A DNA stretch of 64,000 nucleotides from an uncultured Tateyamaria sp. (GCF_947503045.1 NZ_CANNCF010000001.1:434001-498000), one strand, 5' to 3'; counted from the first letter of the stretch, positions 51,776 through 59,938 are shown. Notes: a model not told the origin generated them from the letters alone. Numbers and translations are program-made.

Positions 51776-53377
51776 TCACTTCGCTTTTGGCGCATTATCT
51801 GAATTGAAAAGGTCATTGGCTGTGTGCCAATCGAATAGTTTCACGAGTTTGTCGCGCTGTTCGATGGGTTGGGTATTCTCGCGATTTATGGCCTTGCGCT
51901 TGTCTTCGGGGATCAGGCTGACGATCCCGGCGGCGATGGCGACCGAGGCGGATGTCCCCGCAAAGCGGGTAAAAAGTGACCCGATTTCATAGTATTGATC
52001 GTTATCGTATTGATCGTTTTCGTCCTCCTCCGGATACTGATAGGGGGATGGATTGTACCCTGCTTGACGGGGTAGGTCCGTCGTGACGATATCGCGGGCA
52101 GGGAATTCCCTGCCTGTCAATCTCGGTGGGTCCAAATCCTTGTCAATCGCGGCCCATGGGTCGATCTTGCGCTCCCCGTCCTCGCGGTCAAAACGAGGCA
52201 ATTCCGTGCTCAGCGTTTTGATCATCCAGCCATGGTGACCGATGACGGTGGTCTGCGTGGGTGAATAACTCAGGTCTTCGCCCTTGTCGTCGCAAGCCCC
52301 CACGGCCCAAGGGCCATGCGGGTCGGTGCATGCCGATGCGGGGTAAACCGGGTGGGACAAATCCTCATTTCCGGCGGCGCAAAGCACGATAGTTTCCTGG
52401 CACAGATCCATGAAGTCTTCATGCAGACGATCCCACAACTTGTTTTCCTCTTCCTGCATTTGTTGCGCGTCCTTGGACAGCGGTTTCGCACGATCACGCG
52501 GTCGATCCCACGAATCCGCGATCACCACGATATCCGGTTCGACCAATTTCGCGTATTCCACGGCGGATCGTAGCATCGAAGCGCTCGGGGCGGCGGAAAT
52601 GGAGATCGGGACAATTCGGCAAAACGGATTGATCCCGCAATAGGGAAGCGGCAGCCAATCGGCAGAGGAAAGAACAACATCGTCTATGATTTCGCCGTTT
52701 TCGTGTTTCAAGCCGCGCAGAAATGCAGGCTCACGAAAACAGATGCTGGTGGGCCGCGCTCCGATCAGCCCGGCGACGGCCGTTCCATGGGCGCCGAACA
52801 CGCGAAAGGGTCGTTCTGAACTATGCCCGTGCTCGATCTCGGCAACGATGGCCTTGGCAAGGTCGGTGTTTTGCTTGCTCGCCTTGTCCCCCAGCCACGC
52901 GCGGGATTTGACATCCGCGTCTAGAAAATACTTGTCGCCCTTGTTTTCGTTACCGTCCTTGAAACGCAGAAACTCCCCATGTGCGGTATGACTGAAATCG
53001 CGCATCAACCCGGTATCCATGGCCCCGCATAAATTCGGGTGCTTATAGTCGACAGGCGTGTCGATCAACGCGATGCGCGCCGGGCGAGGCGGAACCGGAA
53101 CCTGCGTGTCCGTGTCGCCCTTGTCTTTACGCTGCGAAACCGCCTTTTTGCCGGTGTTCTTGTTGCCCATCGCGACGCTAGCGGCACCTTCCCAGGGCTC
53201 GCCTCCATATTCCGACAATTTGTCGACGATTTGCAGCACGTGAAGGTGCCACAGTGCGTGGAAGGCCGGGCGAAACCCCGTTCCCAGCGGGTGGCAGTAA
53301 CGTTCATCGTCCTGCTTGGGCTTCTGATAAGAGGGATGCGGATGACGTCCATGGGGGTGTTTTTGACTATGTGCCAT
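51776..53377 (-). CDS. S8 subtilisin-like protease without signal peptide
   Basis: The 533-residue protein begins MAHSQKHPHGRHPHP after GGGAGAAAAAAG. The triad is readable: Asp 106 in ALIDTPVD, His 197 in FGAHGTAVAG, Ser 476 in AGTSASVA, with the oxyanion Asn 337 in CAAGNED. Unusual parts are a His-rich N-terminus, a long insert between Asp and His, and an acidic/Tyr stretch (about 449-464) just before the Ser. There is no signal peptide, so it acts inside the cell or leaves by a non-Sec route. It lies 11 bp after the haloperoxidase-like gene, in one operon with it. Confidence 0.88.
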   Translation of the reverse strand: MAHSQKHPHGRHPHPSYQKPKQDDERYCHPLGTGFRPAFHALWHLHVLQIVDKLSEYGGEPWEGAASVAMGNKNTGKKAVSQRKDKGDTDTQVPVPPRPARIALIDTPVDYKHPNLCGAMDTGLMRDFSHTAHGEFLRFKDGNENKGDKYFLDADVKSRAWLGDKASKQNTDLAKAIVAEIEHGHSSERPFRVFGAHGTAVAGLIGARPTSICFREPAFLRGLKHENGEIIDDVVLSSADWLPLPYCGINPFCRIVPISISAAPSASMLRSAVEYAKLVEPDIVVIADSWDRPRDRAKPLSKDAQQMQEEENKLWDRLHEDFMDLCQETIVLCAAGNEDLSHPVYPASACTDPHGPWAVGACDDKGEDLSYSPTQTTVIGHHGWMIKTLSTELPRFDREDGERKIDPWAAIDKDLDPPRLTGREFPARDIVTTDLPRQAGYNPSPYQYPEEDENDQYDNDQYYEIGSLFTRFAGTSASVAIAAGIVSLIPEDKRKAINRENTQPIEQRDKLVKLFDWHTANDLFNSDNAPKAK

Positions 53378-53388
53378 CTTTTTTCTCC

Positions 53389-54408
53389 CTATTGCAGCCA
53401 TTCCGCGCGGACGAGGCGGATTTGATCTTGCAGAATATCTTCGAACATCGGGGCACACAGGCGCGCCAGTGTTTCGCCGCCCTCGGTGTCCGATACGATG
53501 TGCAACCCGGCCCATTCCCGGTTCTTCGCCACCTCGGCTGCAGCACGGAACAGGGCAGCCCCGCCCGGATGCTCGGGGGCCGCGCGCGCAAACACTTCGG
53601 CGATCAGAAAGGACTGGAACGCGTGGTTGGACGGATAGGACGAATAGGCGGGCACCGGGATGAACGGTTCCAGCGTGGGATCCAACACGTGGGGGCGCGG
53701 CGCGTTGAAACGTTCCTTGTAGATCAGCCCGATCAGGCTGCCCAACCACAGGATCGTCTGAAACATCACCGCCGTCGCACTGCCGGGCGTGGTGACATCC
53801 GCACCCAGCGGCAGCATATAGGCCGTCAAGTCGTTGCCCGCCTCACGCCGGATGCGTTCCCGGCGAAAGGCCTCTTCGGGTTCTCGCAGTTGTTTCTGGT
53901 AGTCGTGCAGGGGCTCTATCTCAGCCAGCCTGTCGCGCACAGGCAGAGGCGCGGGCATTTCGTGCAACTCGAACCTGTCCCACCGATAACTGTCGCGGCG
54001 ATCATATAGCCGGTGCAACTCCCGCCACGGGACCTCGATCGTGGGCCAATCCAGCTCGGGTCCGCCGCCATATCCGCTGGACATTCCCGCAGCCGCCTGA
54101 AGGCCCTTGTGCAAGCCTTTGTGCAGAGATTTGTGGAGGCTCTTGTGCAGGGATTTGTGCAGCGCCTTGTGCAGCGCCTTGTGCAGCAGCCCACTAGTAT
54201 ACCCGGCCACGGCACTTTGGGCAAATCTGAATGCTTCGTCAGCATCGTCCTGGGCGGTCAATTCCACCATGATCCGGTCATTGTTGATTTTCAGAAATGC
54301 GGACTTGAGAATGTTTTTGACGTCATCCAGTGTTTGCTGCGGCCCGCTATGGTCAGGACGGTCGTTTTCGTAGCATTTCGTCGGGTCCGTTTTTTTGTCT
54401 TTTGGCAT
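53389..54408 (-). CDS. PAP2 / vanadium-haloperoxidase-like protein with LHKx repeats
   Basis: The 339-residue protein has the three-part phosphate/vanadate pocket of the PAP2 superfamily: K231-x6-R238-P239 (KERFNAPRP), PSNH (259-262) and R297-x5-H303-x3-D307 (NREWAGLHIVSD). Its size and the single soluble domain resemble vanadium haloperoxidase-type members more than small membrane phosphatases; I cannot decide between peroxidase and phosphatase activity. Residues 75-102 are seven tandem LHKx tetrapeptides. No signal peptide. It precedes the subtilase in a minus-strand unit. Confidence 0.82.
   Translation of the reverse strand: MPKDKKTDPTKCYENDRPDHSGPQQTLDDVKNILKSAFLKINNDRIMVELTAQDDADEAFRFAQSAVAGYTSGLLHKALHKALHKSLHKSLHKSLHKGLHKGLQAAAGMSSGYGGGPELDWPTIEVPWRELHRLYDRRDSYRWDRFELHEMPAPLPVRDRLAEIEPLHDYQKQLREPEEAFRRERIRREAGNDLTAYMLPLGADVTTPGSATAVMFQTILWLGSLIGLIYKERFNAPRPHVLDPTLEPFIPVPAYSSYPSNHAFQSFLIAEVFARAAPEHPGGAALFRAAAEVAKNREWAGLHIVSDTEGGETLARLCAPMFEDILQDQIRLVRAEWLQ
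54103..54186 (-). repeat. seven 12-bp repeats encoding LHKx
   Basis: The repeats LHKA, LHKA, LHKS, LHKS, LHKS, LHKG, LHKG lie in the haloperoxidase-like gene. At DNA level units such as CTTGTGCAGCGC recur with few changes, so slippage could change the copy number without a frameshift. Confidence 0.9.
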
Positions 54409-54433
54409 TTGGATAACCTGTCGTCTAAAGGGA

Positions 54434-56128
54434 TTAAATCAGTCCGTTTTGTTCAAAACTGCGCACCAGTCGTCGGCTTAGATCTATGGGCGTGCGCTGA
54501 ACCATGCGGTCGGTCCATTCCGCCAAGTCGTAATCCGGGCGCAATTGCCGAATCCGCGCCCGCAGGCGGCGCGCATCCCCCGTATTTCCGGCCAGGGCGG
54601 ATCCGGCCATGGCATAGCGCAAGGCGCCGATGAACCGCGGTTTACGAAACAGCGCGCGATTGGCAAAGGACAGGGCCAGTTTGTAATCGCCCTTGGCCAT
54701 GAAAATCATCGCACCGGTTACGTCATAGGTATATCGCCACGGGCTGTGCGCGCCGTTCTTCTGGCACCGCCAGAACGCGGATTCCGCCTGCGCGAAATCG
54801 CCCTGCATCATGCGAATGACGGCCAGATGATCCAAGTTCAAAGATAATCCCGGTGCGGAGCTATGGGCGCTCTCCAACAGCATGTCCGCCAAGTCGTTTT
54901 GCCCCAGCAGCATATGGGCCGAATAACCCGCAACACTGTGCCAAAGCGGCAGTAACGGGCTGGATGCCGATATCTCCGACAGCAATTGGCACAATCGCTC
55001 GCTGGACATTGGGCGGACCGCCTCGACACCTTCATTCTGCTTGAAGACTTGGGCAAACAGCAAAAGGCACTCCAGTTCCGCCGGGGCGCCGTTCTGGATC
55101 ATGTGATCTATCTGCGTTTCCACCGTAGAGATCATTTGCGGATCCAGTGAGAACAGCCCGGCAATTGCCGTCCAAGGAAACAGGTTCGGAGACTCATCTG
55201 GCAAGGAAACAGTGGCCAGATTGCGCAGGATTATTTCAGCCGTCATTGCGGCCAATTCCTCCGGTTCAAGATCGCTGGCGTTCACCGGATCGGAAATCCA
55301 AAGAATGCGCTGGTTCACCGCTTCTGTCAGGCGAAACCGCATCATGAGATTGCCATCCCGCCGCTCGGCCACGGCTTGCAACAGATGGCTGGGGCCATTG
55401 CCGTTCCGGATGGGCAATGGCACCACGGGAACGTCCCTGTCGCGCAGGTCATGAAGGGACAGAAAGGTGGTCAGCGACACAACGCGGATCGTGGCATCAA
55501 CGATCCCGTCGGCCTCATTGATGCAGGATTCCGAGAGGTTCGCCTGCAGCAGGGGCAGCACCCCAAGCTCAATCCGTTGTGCATTCCGTGCCGGTGACGA
55601 GGCATTCCAATGGGTCTTGGAGACCGGCGGCGCGTCCGGCTGAACGTCGGCTGCGCGGCTGTCGCGCAGCCATTCTTCAAACCCGTCGCAGCCGGGCAAA
55701 GATAAATCCACCCCTTCTAGAAACATCCCGTCCGCAGCGCCGGGGTCCTGGACTTTCAGACGCTCCGGGCACAGCGCTACCCGGCTTCGATTGGAGGTCA
55801 GAACTCCCTCTCCCAAAACCGCAAGATCCTGTTTCAACAGATACAATGCCGTGCGCAAATTGGCCGACGCCTTGGCGGGCGTTTCGCAGGACCAGAACAT
55901 GTCCAGCAAACTGCGTCTGGCTTTGCACAATTCGGGTGCCGAAAGAAGAACGGCAAGGATGGCAATTCTAAGCGGACTGGTGGGGGTGATGTCCGTGCCA
56001 TCGGACAGGTGCAATCGAAATGGCCCATGCAAACGGGCAAACGCACATGGCCTGGGGATGAACGGATCATCGGCGACCGAATTACCGGAGTGTAGCTGTC
56101 CGTCATTCATCACGTTTACACGCCCCAT
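54434..56128 (-). CDS. SARP-like regulator: wHTH, TolB-like and TPR domains
   Basis: This is a protein of about 564 residues; the start is uncertain (Met at 56128 or 56110, or a GTG at 56233). An OmpR/SARP-type winged helix comes first (LHGPFRLHLSDGTDITPTSPLRIAIL, then ASANLRTALYLLKQDL). A TolB-N-like domain follows (ELGVLPLLQANLSESC, ATIRVVSLTTF, then RRDGNLMMRFRLTEAVNQRILWI). The C-terminal half is TPR-like helices (YSAHMLLGQNDLADMLLESA, MAKGDYKLALSFANRALF). It probably controls the flanking protease genes; the two operons diverge around it. Confidence 0.78.
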   Translation of the reverse strand: MGRVNVMNDGQLHSGNSVADDPFIPRPCAFARLHGPFRLHLSDGTDITPTSPLRIAILAVLLSAPELCKARRSLLDMFWSCETPAKASANLRTALYLLKQDLAVLGEGVLTSNRSRVALCPERLKVQDPGAADGMFLEGVDLSLPGCDGFEEWLRDSRAADVQPDAPPVSKTHWNASSPARNAQRIELGVLPLLQANLSESCINEADGIVDATIRVVSLTTFLSLHDLRDRDVPVVPLPIRNGNGPSHLLQAVAERRDGNLMMRFRLTEAVNQRILWISDPVNASDLEPEELAAMTAEIILRNLATVSLPDESPNLFPWTAIAGLFSLDPQMISTVETQIDHMIQNGAPAELECLLLFAQVFKQNEGVEAVRPMSSERLCQLLSEISASSPLLPLWHSVAGYSAHMLLGQNDLADMLLESAHSSAPGLSLNLDHLAVIRMMQGDFAQAESAFWRCQKNGAHSPWRYTYDVTGAMIFMAKGDYKLALSFANRALFRKPRFIGALRYAMAGSALAGNTGDARRLRARIRQLRPDYDLAEWTDRMVQRTPIDLSRRLVRSFEQNGLI

Positions 56129-56242
56129 ACCTGCTTCAACGCTACCACCTGTACGTGAAACGACATAACAAAAATATTCACGCACCAATTCAAAAGGCAA
56201 TGACACGCCAGCGCCCGGGCAATTGATGCCCACGAAATGGCG

Positions 56243-56261
56243 CGATGACGTTTCGATGACG
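56243..56261 (+). promoter_or_regulatory. CGATGACG direct repeats, 11 bp apart
   Basis: Two identical octamers begin at 56243 and 56254 in the divergent regulator/protease spacer. Tandem repeats at 11-bp pitch are the usual binding geometry of OmpR/SARP winged-helix proteins, so this is a candidate site for the adjacent regulator. Confidence 0.5.
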
Positions 56262-56320
56262 GTACTGCTTTAGCTCTTTCTGAAGCCCGCAAATCCCAGC
56301 GGCGCATTCAGGAGGAAACA

Positions 56321-57313
56321 ATGCCCGAAGCGATCGCATTCACTGCACAATTCAAGGGCGTACGGTGGCAAACAGCCCTTGGCATGGCGGCCTGCCTTTC
56401 CATCGCCACGGCCTTTCCGGCCATTGCCCAAGATCAGGACAATCCCCACAACCCGCTAAGTTCCGACGGCGTCAGCGTCGCCGAAATCATGGGCCCCTTC
56501 AACGCCGAACCCGGCAATGAAGGCGACCCGGGCAAGACCACAGGCACCCAGGGCGAATCCATCCCGACCGAATCTGCTGAAGACTTTTTCGACCTGCTGG
56601 AGCTGGAACCGGCGGTCGCGGACCCCATTGAAGACGAAATCGGAATCCGCAGCATCTTCAGACCCGACACGCGCAAGCGCAACAAGACAACCACCTACCC
56701 CGAGCGCACCAGCGTCCTTGTGACTTACAACAACAAGCGCTGTTCCGGCGCGATGATTTCCAAGGACACGGTGCTGACGGCAGGGCATTGCGTGCATGGT
56801 GGCGGTTCCGCGGGAAGTTGGTCGCAGAACGTGCGGGTCTATCCGGGGCGCGATGGGCCATCCTCCCCCTTTGGATCGTGCCGCGCCCGCAGCCTTCATT
56901 CCGTGACAGGCTGGGTGCGCAACCGCGATGAACGCTACGATTACGGCGCCATCAAGCTGGATTGTACCGTGGGCGAACGCACCGGATGGCTGGGCTTTTT
57001 CTGGCAAACGGCCAGCCTTGTGGGGCTGCCCACCATCATCGACGGCTATCCCGGTGACAAGAACCTGACCCAATGGCGCTCGACCGACCAACTGCGCGCG
57101 AACGACACCCGCCAGGTCTTTTACCGCAACGACACGGTTCCGGGAAACAGCGGCTCGGCCGTCTACACCACCGCCTCCAGCGTATGCCGGGGCCCCTGTG
57201 CCCTGGGGGTGCACAGCATGGGCGTCCACGGCGGCGGCGTTCACGCCAGCAACAACCACGGCGTGCGCATCACCAAGGCGGTGTTCGAGAATCTGAAGCG
57301 CTGGACCCAATAA
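56321..57313 (+). CDS. exported S1 (V8/trypsin-like) serine protease
   Basis: The 330-residue protein has a signal peptide (about 1-36, ending AIAQ), a long acidic pro-region (about 37-110) and a chymotrypsin-fold domain. The triad: His 156 in TAGHCVHG, Asp 207 in RYDYGAIKLD, Ser 277 in PGNSGSAVY. It resembles glutamyl endopeptidase/V8-like secreted proteases; several Cys suggest disulfides. GGAGGAAACA precedes the ATG. It is the first gene of a plus-strand unit of four. Confidence 0.9.
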   Translation: MPEAIAFTAQFKGVRWQTALGMAACLSIATAFPAIAQDQDNPHNPLSSDGVSVAEIMGPFNAEPGNEGDPGKTTGTQGESIPTESAEDFFDLLELEPAVADPIEDEIGIRSIFRPDTRKRNKTTTYPERTSVLVTYNNKRCSGAMISKDTVLTAGHCVHGGGSAGSWSQNVRVYPGRDGPSSPFGSCRARSLHSVTGWVRNRDERYDYGAIKLDCTVGERTGWLGFFWQTASLVGLPTIIDGYPGDKNLTQWRSTDQLRANDTRQVFYRNDTVPGNSGSAVYTTASSVCRGPCALGVHSMGVHGGGVHASNNHGVRITKAVFENLKRWTQ

Positions 57314-57380
57314 CCGGCCTCTCAGACCCATCCGGATGCCCCTGACGGGCCTCTGGCTAACTTTGACAAGGAGATTTGAA

Positions 57381-58688
57381 ATGACCAAGAAACCCAAAAA
57401 GAAACCCGCGCCGCAACCTGCTTGCATGTCCCTGTCGTCCTCGGTCGATGAACTTCTGGCGGATGCGCTGAAAACGGAACCCGGCGCGCAGAACACAGGC
57501 CGTACGGTTCTGACCTTCAAGGACGGTGCCAATGGCGACATGGCGGCGATGTTCCAGGCCTCCGGCGCCCGTGTGGCCGATGCGCGCGACTATGTGGATC
57601 AATCCGTAGATCTCTCGCAACTGAGCGATGCCGATGTTCTGATGCTGCCGGAAATCAACGTGGCCGTGATGACACCGCGCGCGGTCGAGGCCAGCGCCGT
57701 GGGCGAGATGTCCGCGCTGTCCAGTGACAGTCCCATAGCCAGCATTGACCCCGAACATTTCGTTCATGCCATCGACAAAAGTTCGGAATTCATGCGTGGC
57801 TTCCTGCAGGCGACGCGGGCCATCGCCGAAGGTCAGGCCCTGCTGGAATCGGAACCGGATTTGATGGTTGAGGCCGAGGCAAGCGGCGTCACCTGGGGTC
57901 TGGCAGCCTGCAAGGTCCCCGAAAGCAGCCGCAGCGGCGCGGGCATCAAGGTTGCCGTGCTCGATACCGGTCTGGATTTCGGACATCCCGATTTCGTCGG
58001 ACGCCGGATCACCGGAAAGTCCTTTGTGGGCGGCACGGAACAGGACGGCAACGGCCATGGCACCCACTGCATAGGCACCGCCTGCGGCCCGCAATCCCCC
58101 ACCGGCCCCGTGCCGCGCTACGGGATCGGCTATGGCGCCCAGATCTATGTGGGCAAGGTATTGGCCGACAATGGCTCCAGCGTGGGCACCAGTGTTCTGC
58201 TGGGCATGAACTGGGCCATCGCGAACCGGTGCGAGGTCATCTCCATGTCTCTGGGCGGGCGCACCTCAACCGTCTATCAGCCCTATGTGCGGGCCGGTCA
58301 AAGGGCGCTGGACAACGGGCTGCTAATGATCGCGGCGACGGGCAACCAAAGAAGCCTCACCGCCGCCCCCGCCAATTCGCCCACGATCATGGCGGTGGCC
58401 TCGCTGGATCCGAACCTCAAACGATCGAACTTCTCGAACTATGGCAAGGTGGAAATCGCGGCCCCGGGCCGGGACGTGCTGTCATCCGCTCCCCGCCCCG
58501 AGCTTTACCGCGAAGCGGCAGGTACCAGCATGGCCACCCCCCATGTGGCGGGCTGCGCCGCGCTCTGGGCACAGACCGATCCCCGCTTGCGCGGTAAGGC
58601 GCTTTGGGATCGGTTGCAACGCGCGGCCCGTCCGCTGAGCGAGCCGGCAAAATTCGTTGGCAGCGGCCTGGTTCAGGCGCCATCCTGA
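57381..58688 (+). CDS. S8 subtilisin-like protease
   Basis: The 435-residue protein starts at MTKKPKKKPAPQ with AAGGAGA upstream. Residues about 40-95 look like an I9-type propeptide (RTVLTFKDGANGDMAAMF, ending VLMLPEINVAVMTP). The peptidase domain has Asp 195 (AVLDTGLDF), His 226 (GNGHGTHCIG), Asn 322 (AATGNQ) and Ser 383 (AGTSMATPHVAG). No classical signal peptide precedes the propeptide. It is followed by a gene for a separate I9-like protein, whose upstream ATG overlaps its stop. Confidence 0.9.
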   Translation: MTKKPKKKPAPQPACMSLSSSVDELLADALKTEPGAQNTGRTVLTFKDGANGDMAAMFQASGARVADARDYVDQSVDLSQLSDADVLMLPEINVAVMTPRAVEASAVGEMSALSSDSPIASIDPEHFVHAIDKSSEFMRGFLQATRAIAEGQALLESEPDLMVEAEASGVTWGLAACKVPESSRSGAGIKVAVLDTGLDFGHPDFVGRRITGKSFVGGTEQDGNGHGTHCIGTACGPQSPTGPVPRYGIGYGAQIYVGKVLADNGSSVGTSVLLGMNWAIANRCEVISMSLGGRTSTVYQPYVRAGQRALDNGLLMIAATGNQRSLTAAPANSPTIMAVASLDPNLKRSNFSNYGKVEIAAPGRDVLSSAPRPELYREAAGTSMATPHVAGCAALWAQTDPRLRGKALWDRLQRAARPLSEPAKFVGSGLVQAPS

Positions 58689-58732
58689 TGCCAGCGGCAG
58701 TGATCCTGACCTCAACAGAAGGAAGTGAGCCC

Positions 58733-58972
58733 ATGGACGACACGCAAAGATGGATCGTAACAGTGGAGCCAAGCGCCGATCTCGCCGATCTAAGCCAGCG
58801 CCTGCAGTCCCAGGGCTGCGCCGTCGAACACGCCCTTGAAGAACTCGGGATGTTGGTGGGCGTTTGTAGCCAGACCATGGCCGACAGCATCGCTGCCCTT
58901 CCCGAGGTCAAGGACGTCTCGCCGGAGATCAGCACCAGCATCGACCCACCCGATCTGGACGACGCGCCCTAA
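58733..58972 (+). CDS. stand-alone I9-propeptide-like protein
   Basis: The 79-residue protein starts at MDDTQRWIVTVEPSADL (GGAAG site upstream; an earlier ATG at 58688 overlaps the subtilase stop). The pattern is that of subtilisin propeptides/I9 inhibitors: a first beta strand WIVTVEP, a helix LADLSQRLQSQG, a strand, a second helix SIAALPEV and a final strand KDVSPEIST, about 75 residues in all. As a free protein it could inhibit or help fold the neighbouring subtilase in trans. The assignment rests on pattern, not on catalytic residues. Confidence 0.65.
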   Translation: MDDTQRWIVTVEPSADLADLSQRLQSQGCAVEHALEELGMLVGVCSQTMADSIAALPEVKDVSPEISTSIDPPDLDDAP

Positions 58973-59164
58973 AGCTTCATGCGAAAGACCTGACGCGACC
59001 AGCGTTGCCTGACGCCAAAGATTTCAAGGCGCTAAGTGATGCGAAACGTTTCGGGTACGTCGCCAGAGGCTCGGAGGTACGAATCCGATCACAACAACAT
59101 CATTCGGGCGCAGCACTTGCGCCCGGATCCCCCCGTTTTGGCCAAAAGAGCAGAGGTTTTCATC

Positions 59165-59938
59165 ATGACACCTTCGATTGCAATCCGCTTCCTACACCGC
59201 ACCCCGTTGCTATGTTTGCCCCTACTGGTGGCAGGCTGCGCCACATTATCGGCGCTGACCTTGCCCGAATCTCGAGGCACAGCAGGGGCCCAGACCAGCC
59301 TGACATCCGGCCCCTGCGCCAGCGCACGGGAAAGTGCCGCCGGATTGATCGCGCCCGGGGTTCTGCCCAGTATCCTATTCGATCAGGCCGCCAGCCTTCT
59401 CAACTCCGCATTGGAAGCCAAAGCCGCGCGCTTCACGGCAACCTATGTGGCGCGGATCTCGCTGGATCGGTTGGTTCCCGGTCACTGTCTGCGCATGCAG
59501 CGCCTGACGCAAGATGGCGAGGTTCTCAGCGATCTCGAAATAAAGGTGGCCAGCCGCGGGGGTTCGTCCCTAGAACTGGTCCCTCAAAGGCTGAACATGA
59601 CCGCCTTTGCCGCCTCCTCTTCTGCGCAAGACGGGACCGTCAGCGCCGCCGTATCCGTGTCCGCGTCGATTTCCTATGTGAACCGCCGCCAGATCGACGG
59701 GCCCGCGCCGATCACAAGCTTTTCGCTGCCCATTGCCGCGGCCCGCGTCACGCTGGACCGCACCCCGTCCGACGTACTGAATGGACAGCGTTCTCCGTTC
59801 TTTCCCGATACCGGAGACCGGCCCGTGAACATCGCTATCAGTGTCACCGAACATGGCGACGGCGGCGATACTGTACAGGGCGGGCTTGACGGCTTCGCTG
59901 CAAATGCCGCCGCGCTGCGCACGTTGCTGGGGATATGA
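59165..59938 (+). CDS. lipoprotein of unknown function
   Basis: The 257-residue protein starts at ATG 59165 and has a lipoprotein signal (FLHRTPLLCLPLLVAGC, lipobox LVAGC). The mature part is Ala/Ser-rich with alternating beta-like segments and a helical start (SLLNSALEAKAARFTATYVARISLD); no family is recognised. It is the last gene of the plus-strand protease unit, probably in the outer membrane or periplasm near the S1 protease. Confidence 0.7.
   Translation: MTPSIAIRFLHRTPLLCLPLLVAGCATLSALTLPESRGTAGAQTSLTSGPCASARESAAGLIAPGVLPSILFDQAASLLNSALEAKAARFTATYVARISLDRLVPGHCLRMQRLTQDGEVLSDLEIKVASRGGSSLELVPQRLNMTAFAASSSAQDGTVSAAVSVSASISYVNRRQIDGPAPITSFSLPIAAARVTLDRTPSDVLNGQRSPFFPDTGDRPVNIAISVTEHGDGGDTVQGGLDGFAANAAALRTLLGI

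Follow-up and report, generated by a model that had tools for sequence, protein, structure and literature searches.

What purpose is served by an exact tandem repeat of a few amino acids in front of the catalytic domain of a bacterial phosphatase, encoded between a regulator and a protease? The question is raised by positions 51776-59938 of a stretch of DNA from an uncultured Tateyamaria sp. (GCF_947503045.1, NZ_CANNCF010000001.1:434001-498000; the window is the whole stretch of 64,000 nucleotides). An earlier note had described seven genes in a divergent arrangement at this locus, and all seven are real open reading frames that lie where that note had placed them. The conserved unit, however, is not all seven genes, but the minus-strand triad (51776-56233) of a regulator, a PAP2 protein and a subtilase termed S8a:

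54434-56233, minus strand: regulator with a winged-helix head, a TolB-like alpha/beta part and a TPR superhelix; start uncertain (ATG near 56110-56128 or later)
53389-54408, minus strand: PAP2 protein with a class A acid phosphatase-like domain and an N-terminal tandem-repeat tail, without signal peptide
54100-54186, minus strand: tandem repeat LHKA LHKA LHKS LHKS LHKS LHKG LHKG L, PAP2 residues 75-103
53692-53718, minus strand: PAP2 motif 1, K231-x6-R238-P239, invariant in 66 homologues
53623-53634, minus strand: PAP2 motif 2, PSNH (residues 259-262), of which S, N and H are invariant
53488-53520, minus strand: PAP2 motif 3, R297-x5-H303-x3-D307, invariant
51776-53377, minus strand: S8a subtilase, the triad's third gene, with neither signal peptide nor recognisable propeptide; D106, H197, N337 and S476 conserved

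Judging from codon scoring, S8a probably starts at 53377, 11 bases past the end of the PAP2 gene, rather than at 53749.

A profile built from six sequences was used to scan one genome per GTDB species and yielded 80 loci, which together with the window and five plasmid loci make up a set of 86 close loci. All three genes were recognised in 81 of these, and in every one of the 81 the regulator, PAP2 and S8 genes are consecutive, on one strand and in this order. Two of the incomplete loci (L082 and L085) hold a third S8 gene that was overlooked in the first pass and is visible on reading, while the remaining three are cut by contig ends. Intergenic gaps usually range from -35 to about 80 bases; the few wider ones stem from start calls set too late. 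The three proteins diverge in step: their pairwise distances correlate with r 0.91-0.95, the best of 500 permutations reaching 0.11. Regulator, repeat-tailed PAP2 protein and protease are a co-inherited three-gene operon of Pseudomonadota, which in two cases (L146 and L153) occurs in genomes related to that of the window at the level of the phylum only. Flank clustering of the close loci gave no constant fourth gene, and in Pfam tallies the neighbours are mostly single metabolic families, the flanks being mostly unrelated to each other. The earlier claim that selection keeps the locus thus holds for the triad, in view of its consecutive order, its co-divergence and its recurrence in other genera, but not for the whole set of seven genes; the neighbourhood search that had been proposed as a check likewise recovers the triad across genera and not the seven genes as a conserved unit. 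Two smaller observations concern individual triads: a plasmid copy in Phaeobacter inhibens M647 (L192), in which the regulator and S8 annotations are shortened, is apparently decaying, and one sub-clade has a gene of 61-63 amino acids between PAP2 and S8 (L111, 7016-7207; L164, 7717-7902).

The window genome has a single copy of the locus. A tyrosine integrase and transposases (IS91 and IS240-type) are found to its left, as the earlier report of adjoining mobile DNA had it, and an FGGY sugar kinase and ABC permeases to its right. When plasmids were searched with the PAP2 protein, syntenic triads turned up in Palleronia, Phyllobacterium, Aliiroseovarius and Rhizobium leguminosarum. The triad and its neighbouring proteases could be viewed as an antiphage or plasmid-competition system, acting in defence or self-destruction: the distribution is patchy, many copies are plasmid-borne, flanks vary, mobile DNA adjoins, and one S8a as well as the plus-strand subtilase (S8b) weakly match the PADLOC subtilase model. 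Yet no PADLOC system is complete, with matches confined to the generic subtilase and weak ones to IetS; phage genomes gave no match and viral contigs two unconvincing ones to PAP2, and the flanks are mostly metabolic, which makes a defensive role quite unlikely.

The PAP2 protein had been labelled PAP2/vanadium-haloperoxidase-like. The first half of the label stands (Pfam PAP2, 29.9 bits; cut-off 27.2), whereas a haloperoxidase identity is rejected on sequence and fold, both being nearer to class A acid phosphatases. These are the nearest hits in a profile search (E 6e-20) and match the predicted model with TMt 0.73, compared to 0.22-0.30 for vanadium haloperoxidases. The latter have the PAP2 active-site residues in common with the triad protein, which is much shorter and carries no haloperoxidase-specific evidence. 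The residues K231, R238, S260, H262, R297, H303 and D307 are invariant in 66 homologues; the earlier statement that active-site residues are intact is borne out for PAP2 and for S8a. With class A nonspecific acid phosphatases (PhoN, PhoC; 7f17 of P. aeruginosa), the protein has in common the soluble, all-helical PAP2 fold and the motifs K-x6-RP, PS-x-H and R-x5-H-x3-D. It differs from them in two non-catalytic letters (PSNH for PSGH, and NR for SR before H), in its N-terminal tandem repeat and in its operon with a regulator and a protease. It also differs in lacking a signal peptide: none is visible in the triad PAP2s, in contrast to ordinary PAP2 controls, which have one. Close to the C-terminal end of the triad PAP2s there is a near-invariant Glu-Trp pair, possibly an interaction or cleavage site.

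The most unusual part of the protein is its tail, which the earlier note had overlooked. In the window it is an exact (LHKx)7 located N-terminal to the domain, with a repeat score of 21 as compared to a best score of 4 in 200 shuffles. All close homologues carry an alternating repeat before the domain, namely (NR)n, (NK)n, (GR)n, (AK)n, (GNR)n, (DNR)n or, within the clade to which the window belongs, (LHKx)n. In distant PAP2s the units are (NTG), (NTS), (NAG), (AEN), (DGM), (DAR), (GGA), (GGF), (TGV), (AGV), (NQG), (SFN), (ASGG), (TAM), (AGR), (GSH), (GNWFG), (QQT) and others. When a tail is called at a simple repeat score of at least 8 that also exceeds all 200 shuffles, 114 of 118 triad PAP2s have one; in the remaining four the repeat is shorter or imperfect, mostly (NK)4. 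None of ten distinct ordinary exported PAP2 phosphatases, with scores of 2-3, has a tail; among roughly 1,230 other genes of the triad loci, one real protein reaches a score of 10. The distant loci had been searched by domain and not by repeat, and those with a regulator neighbour carried the repeat, an out-of-sample success. The tract spans 10-73 residues (median 22) with a period of mostly 2 or 3. Across these sequences its composition is free, whereas its repetition is not.

Several simple explanations of the tail fail. Many units are neutral, so that a purely basic binder of nucleic acid or polyphosphate does not hold as a general rule. A frame-shifting switch of phase variation is excluded because the units are whole codons and length changes keep the frame; between near strains, the copy number shifts by one or two units (NK 7-8, SFN 5-7). 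Recent DNA slippage would have left neighbouring units with common codons, yet their codons are diverse. At 0.61 of the sites that can be compared, adjacent units use different codons, as against 0.47 expected from random codon draws from the rest of the same gene, with 97 loci above expectation and 17 below. This per-locus test leans on related loci, hence each unit type was additionally counted once: 29 of 33 exceed random codon usage (p 1e-5), and 28 of 33 exceed what permuting the tract's own codons gives (p 7e-5). AGA and AGG together make up 24% of the tract arginines vs 8% elsewhere. Because the codons of neighbouring units differ beyond chance, selection, as read from this codon pattern, keeps the amino-acid repeat exact while repetition of the DNA is avoided.

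In a tree of the PAP2 proteins built without the tract, the units are clade-stable, with at least 32 unit changes; stability within clades and switches between them are expected if the unit is matched to a partner. Alternatively, the repeat may make the protein self-associate, or attach it to an anionic polymer or a membrane, and thereby concentrate the phosphatase together with the protease; repetitiveness alone would then matter and the units would drift. The breadth of the units, from basic NR, NK, GR and AK to GGF, GGA and SFN, would fit such multivalent assembly, as would the low-complexity character of the tail, which is modelled at low confidence (predicted local distance difference test, pLDDT, about 45-56, as opposed to >90 for the domain). 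A mere low-complexity linker would, however, have no need of units that remain exact across large divergence within a clade and change only synonymously, and the idea appears unlikely.

If the unit has a partner, the protease is a candidate. S8a is a genuine member of peptidase family S8, with an Asp/His/Ser triad (D106, H197, S476) in its S8 domain that is invariant in 33 homologues, and the earlier description of a minus-strand subtilase without signal peptide agrees with the Pfam match and with the missing signal. (Both subtilases of the locus match Pfam S8, with 60.2 and 141.8 bits at a cut-off of 21.8.) Five distant loci have instead a G1/A4 glutamic peptidase (PF01828; 67-100 bits, cut-off 22.3) as third gene, and in the same five the head of the regulator is a class III nucleotide cyclase. 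In most other distant loci a larger S8 protease occupies the third position; of 22 that were aligned, 21 show the catalytic motifs. The remaining one (L162, 7741-10692) has neither S8 motifs nor a Pfam family, but an HEFGH motif, and is perhaps a metallopeptidase that replaces S8. No intact locus that was read closely lacks a protease. Protease fold and regulator head are exchangeable, whereas TPR sensor, repeat-tailed PAP2 and a protease are constant. Catalytic residues and Pfam domains are those of intracellular subtilases (S8) and eqolisins (G1/A4), from which the triad proteases differ in having neither signal peptide nor recognisable propeptide and in being linked to a phosphatase with a repeat tail.

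The regulator is, according to its AlphaFold model (mean pLDDT 89.5), a winged helix joined to a CadC-like alpha/beta and TPR body, and the best PDB matches in Foldseek are the periplasmic sensor domain of CadC and TPR superhelices; winged-helix, TolB-like and TPR parts had been proposed before, and the model agrees. Its orthologues are annotated as 'SARP family transcriptional regulator'. A SARP combines an OmpR-type winged helix with a BTAD; the winged-helix head is predicted here, but the body is closest to CadC and TPR proteins, and the NCBIfam AfsR score is 15 vs a cut-off of 1430. The protein resembles CadC, SARP (AfsR) and HilA-type regulators in its predicted winged-helix head and TolB-like plus TPR body, with the CadC sensor domain as best fold match, and differs from them in lacking a transmembrane segment and in having a head that can be swapped for a class III nucleotide cyclase. 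Across loci, the heads comprise two types of winged helix as well as cyclases, while the TPR/TolB part is constant. Sensing via the TPR/TolB part is plausible because it is this half of the regulator that stays when the head is exchanged.

TPR regulators that bind short peptides are established in other systems, as are subtilases that mature such peptides. In the triad, the protease might free tandem peptides from the PAP2 tail for the TPR regulator to bind, as in RRNPP regulators or the repeated pheromone precursors of yeast, and a switch of unit would then be a change of signal specificity. One operon does hold a TPR regulator, a subtilase and an exact, clade-specific repeat, and in uniting these elements it is, by analogy only, similar to RRNPP systems and kexin-processed repeat precursors. 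RRNPP systems, however, place an exported propeptide beside an HTH-TPR receptor, whereas the triad has none and its repeat sits inside a protein without an export signal. Units of 2-4 residues carry little specificity, and a phosphatase domain, foreign to both comparisons, is left unexplained. A peptide signal is therefore rather improbable.

The reading preferred here, with a probability of about 0.3, is that the triad works as a latent switch of intracellular proteolysis, the tail being what the partner protease, and perhaps also the TPR sensor, recognises. The triad products would stay in the cytosol, as suggested by the missing signal peptides and the soluble type of the PAP2 domain. The tail may act as a multi-copy docking or cleavage site, or as a pseudosubstrate inhibitor, for a partner protease in which no propeptide is recognisable. 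Stress or free tail peptide may be detected by the soluble CadC-like TPR sensor, which would induce the operon when equipped with a winged helix and would make or modulate a cyclic nucleotide when equipped with a cyclase head. The protease may then cut the tail, whereby the phosphatase would be released, activated or destroyed, and each lineage would retain its own matched repeat unit. The switch is favoured because the constant third gene is a protease whatever its fold; because neither the S8a proteases of the close clade nor the G1 peptidases have a recognisable propeptide, whereas the unrelated S8b comes with its own small partner; and because a unit is retained within clades and switched between them.

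Several points weigh against it. No result ties the tail directly to the protease, and units of two or three residues, NR or GGA for instance, make poor sites for a protease. When PAP2 distance is held equal, at 0.4-0.5, pairs with different units are more divergent in S8a (0.641 v 0.583) and TPR (0.703 v 0.636), but this is not seen at 0.5-0.6 and clades confound the comparison. The cytosolic location is deduced from missing signal peptides, and phosphatase and cyclase activities are predictions. A bolder version, which is doubtful, would make the tail a lineage-specific molecular password: the unit would be a repeated ligand for both the co-encoded protease and the TPR sensor, each lineage would possess an orthogonal phosphatase-protease-sensor circuit, and the protein repeat would be held exact while the DNA repeat is scrambled.

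The plus strand of the locus holds the remaining four genes:

56321-57313, plus strand: S1 trypsin-like protease with signal peptide, a divergent neighbour and not a conserved part
57336-58688, plus strand: S8b, mycosin-like subtilase without signal peptide, separate module; start probably 57381
58733-58972, plus strand: small I9-propeptide-like partner of S8b, with similarity to relatives only and no Pfam match
59036-59938, plus strand: lipoprotein (ATG near 59165) without homologue in related loci

These genes might form the outer arm of one regulator-controlled machine, as the divergent arrangement in the window suggests; S8b-type genes do occur in 11-13 of the 86 triad loci, and in L085 and L184 the triad is followed by S8b and a small protein, directly so in L184. 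The neighbourhood data, however, largely refute such a machine and rule out a conserved seven-gene system, so that it is very improbable. Relatives of the S1 protease (Pfam trypsin, 33.9 bits; cut-off 20.6) were found in one of 120 other genomes of the family, as a tandem pair with no triad nearby; the lipoprotein had no match in the 86 close loci, and neither had the small protein by BLAST. Different genes adjoin the nearest triads (L021-L023 and L075). S8b has relatives (E below 1e-30) in five others among the 120 family genomes. S8b and the small protein are a module of their own, sometimes beside a triad, because the pair, S8b followed by a protein of 80-130 residues, stands alone in four of the five family loci fetched and next to a triad in one (L184). 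The exported arm proposed earlier is retained for the S1 protease and the lipoprotein, but not for S8b, which has no visible signal peptide, and its union with a cytoplasmic arm in one system is unsupported beyond this genome. As for the label I9-like, Pfam has no family for the small protein, Inhibitor_I9 (PF05922) included, nor for the lipoprotein, although such small proteins do recur beside subtilases. They align weakly with each other, and subtilase plus propeptide-like protein is a recurring two-gene module (L180-L184; window 57336-58972).

Other neighbours recur in subsets of triads. Upstream of triads in a Roseobacter subset (L035, 4332-6796; L036, L038, L042, L048, L055, L061, L066) lies a protein of 130-138 amino acids with an acidic N-terminal half and a C-terminal half that is cationic and contains Cys, accompanied by a small acidic partner (about 85-113 amino acids), an S8b-type subtilase and, in many cases, a gene resembling a response regulator; this set resembles a processed peptide with its own protease. 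Triads of the R. leguminosarum type have beside them a putative peptide-modification protein of HEXXH type (L018, 10391-12756; L019; L143), joined in L018 and L019 by a ThiF/E1-like protein (PF00899). A surface lipoprotein assembly modifier (PF04575) is encoded upstream of the triad and on its strand in L024-L027, with an adjoining lipoprotein gene at least in L024-L026. Directly downstream of the triad, L015 (12410-16269) has a haem peroxidase family gene and a C1 peptidase, with similar sizes in L031 and L033, and a small exported protein of 77-88 amino acids follows S8a in L021 (12513-12746), L023, L075 and L090.

As far as could be seen, the parts of the triad are known families, while their combination and the repeat tail are new. 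No Pfam or NCBIfam family covers the triad as a whole, and literature searches with combinations of the gene names found no description of it, within a coverage that leaves out preprints (bioRxiv) and most subscription journals. The triad is widespread among bacteria and fits no described system that was found. Its codon pattern provides direct evidence for a function of repetition as such in a bacterial enzyme, and a repeat that differs between lineages and yet is selected points to an unknown recognition mechanism. The more than 30 natural variants of the tail provide a series for testing how simple repeats are recognised, and a role would follow for hundreds of proteins that are annotated merely as 'phosphatase PAP2 family', 'SARP family regulator' or 'S8 family serine peptidase'.

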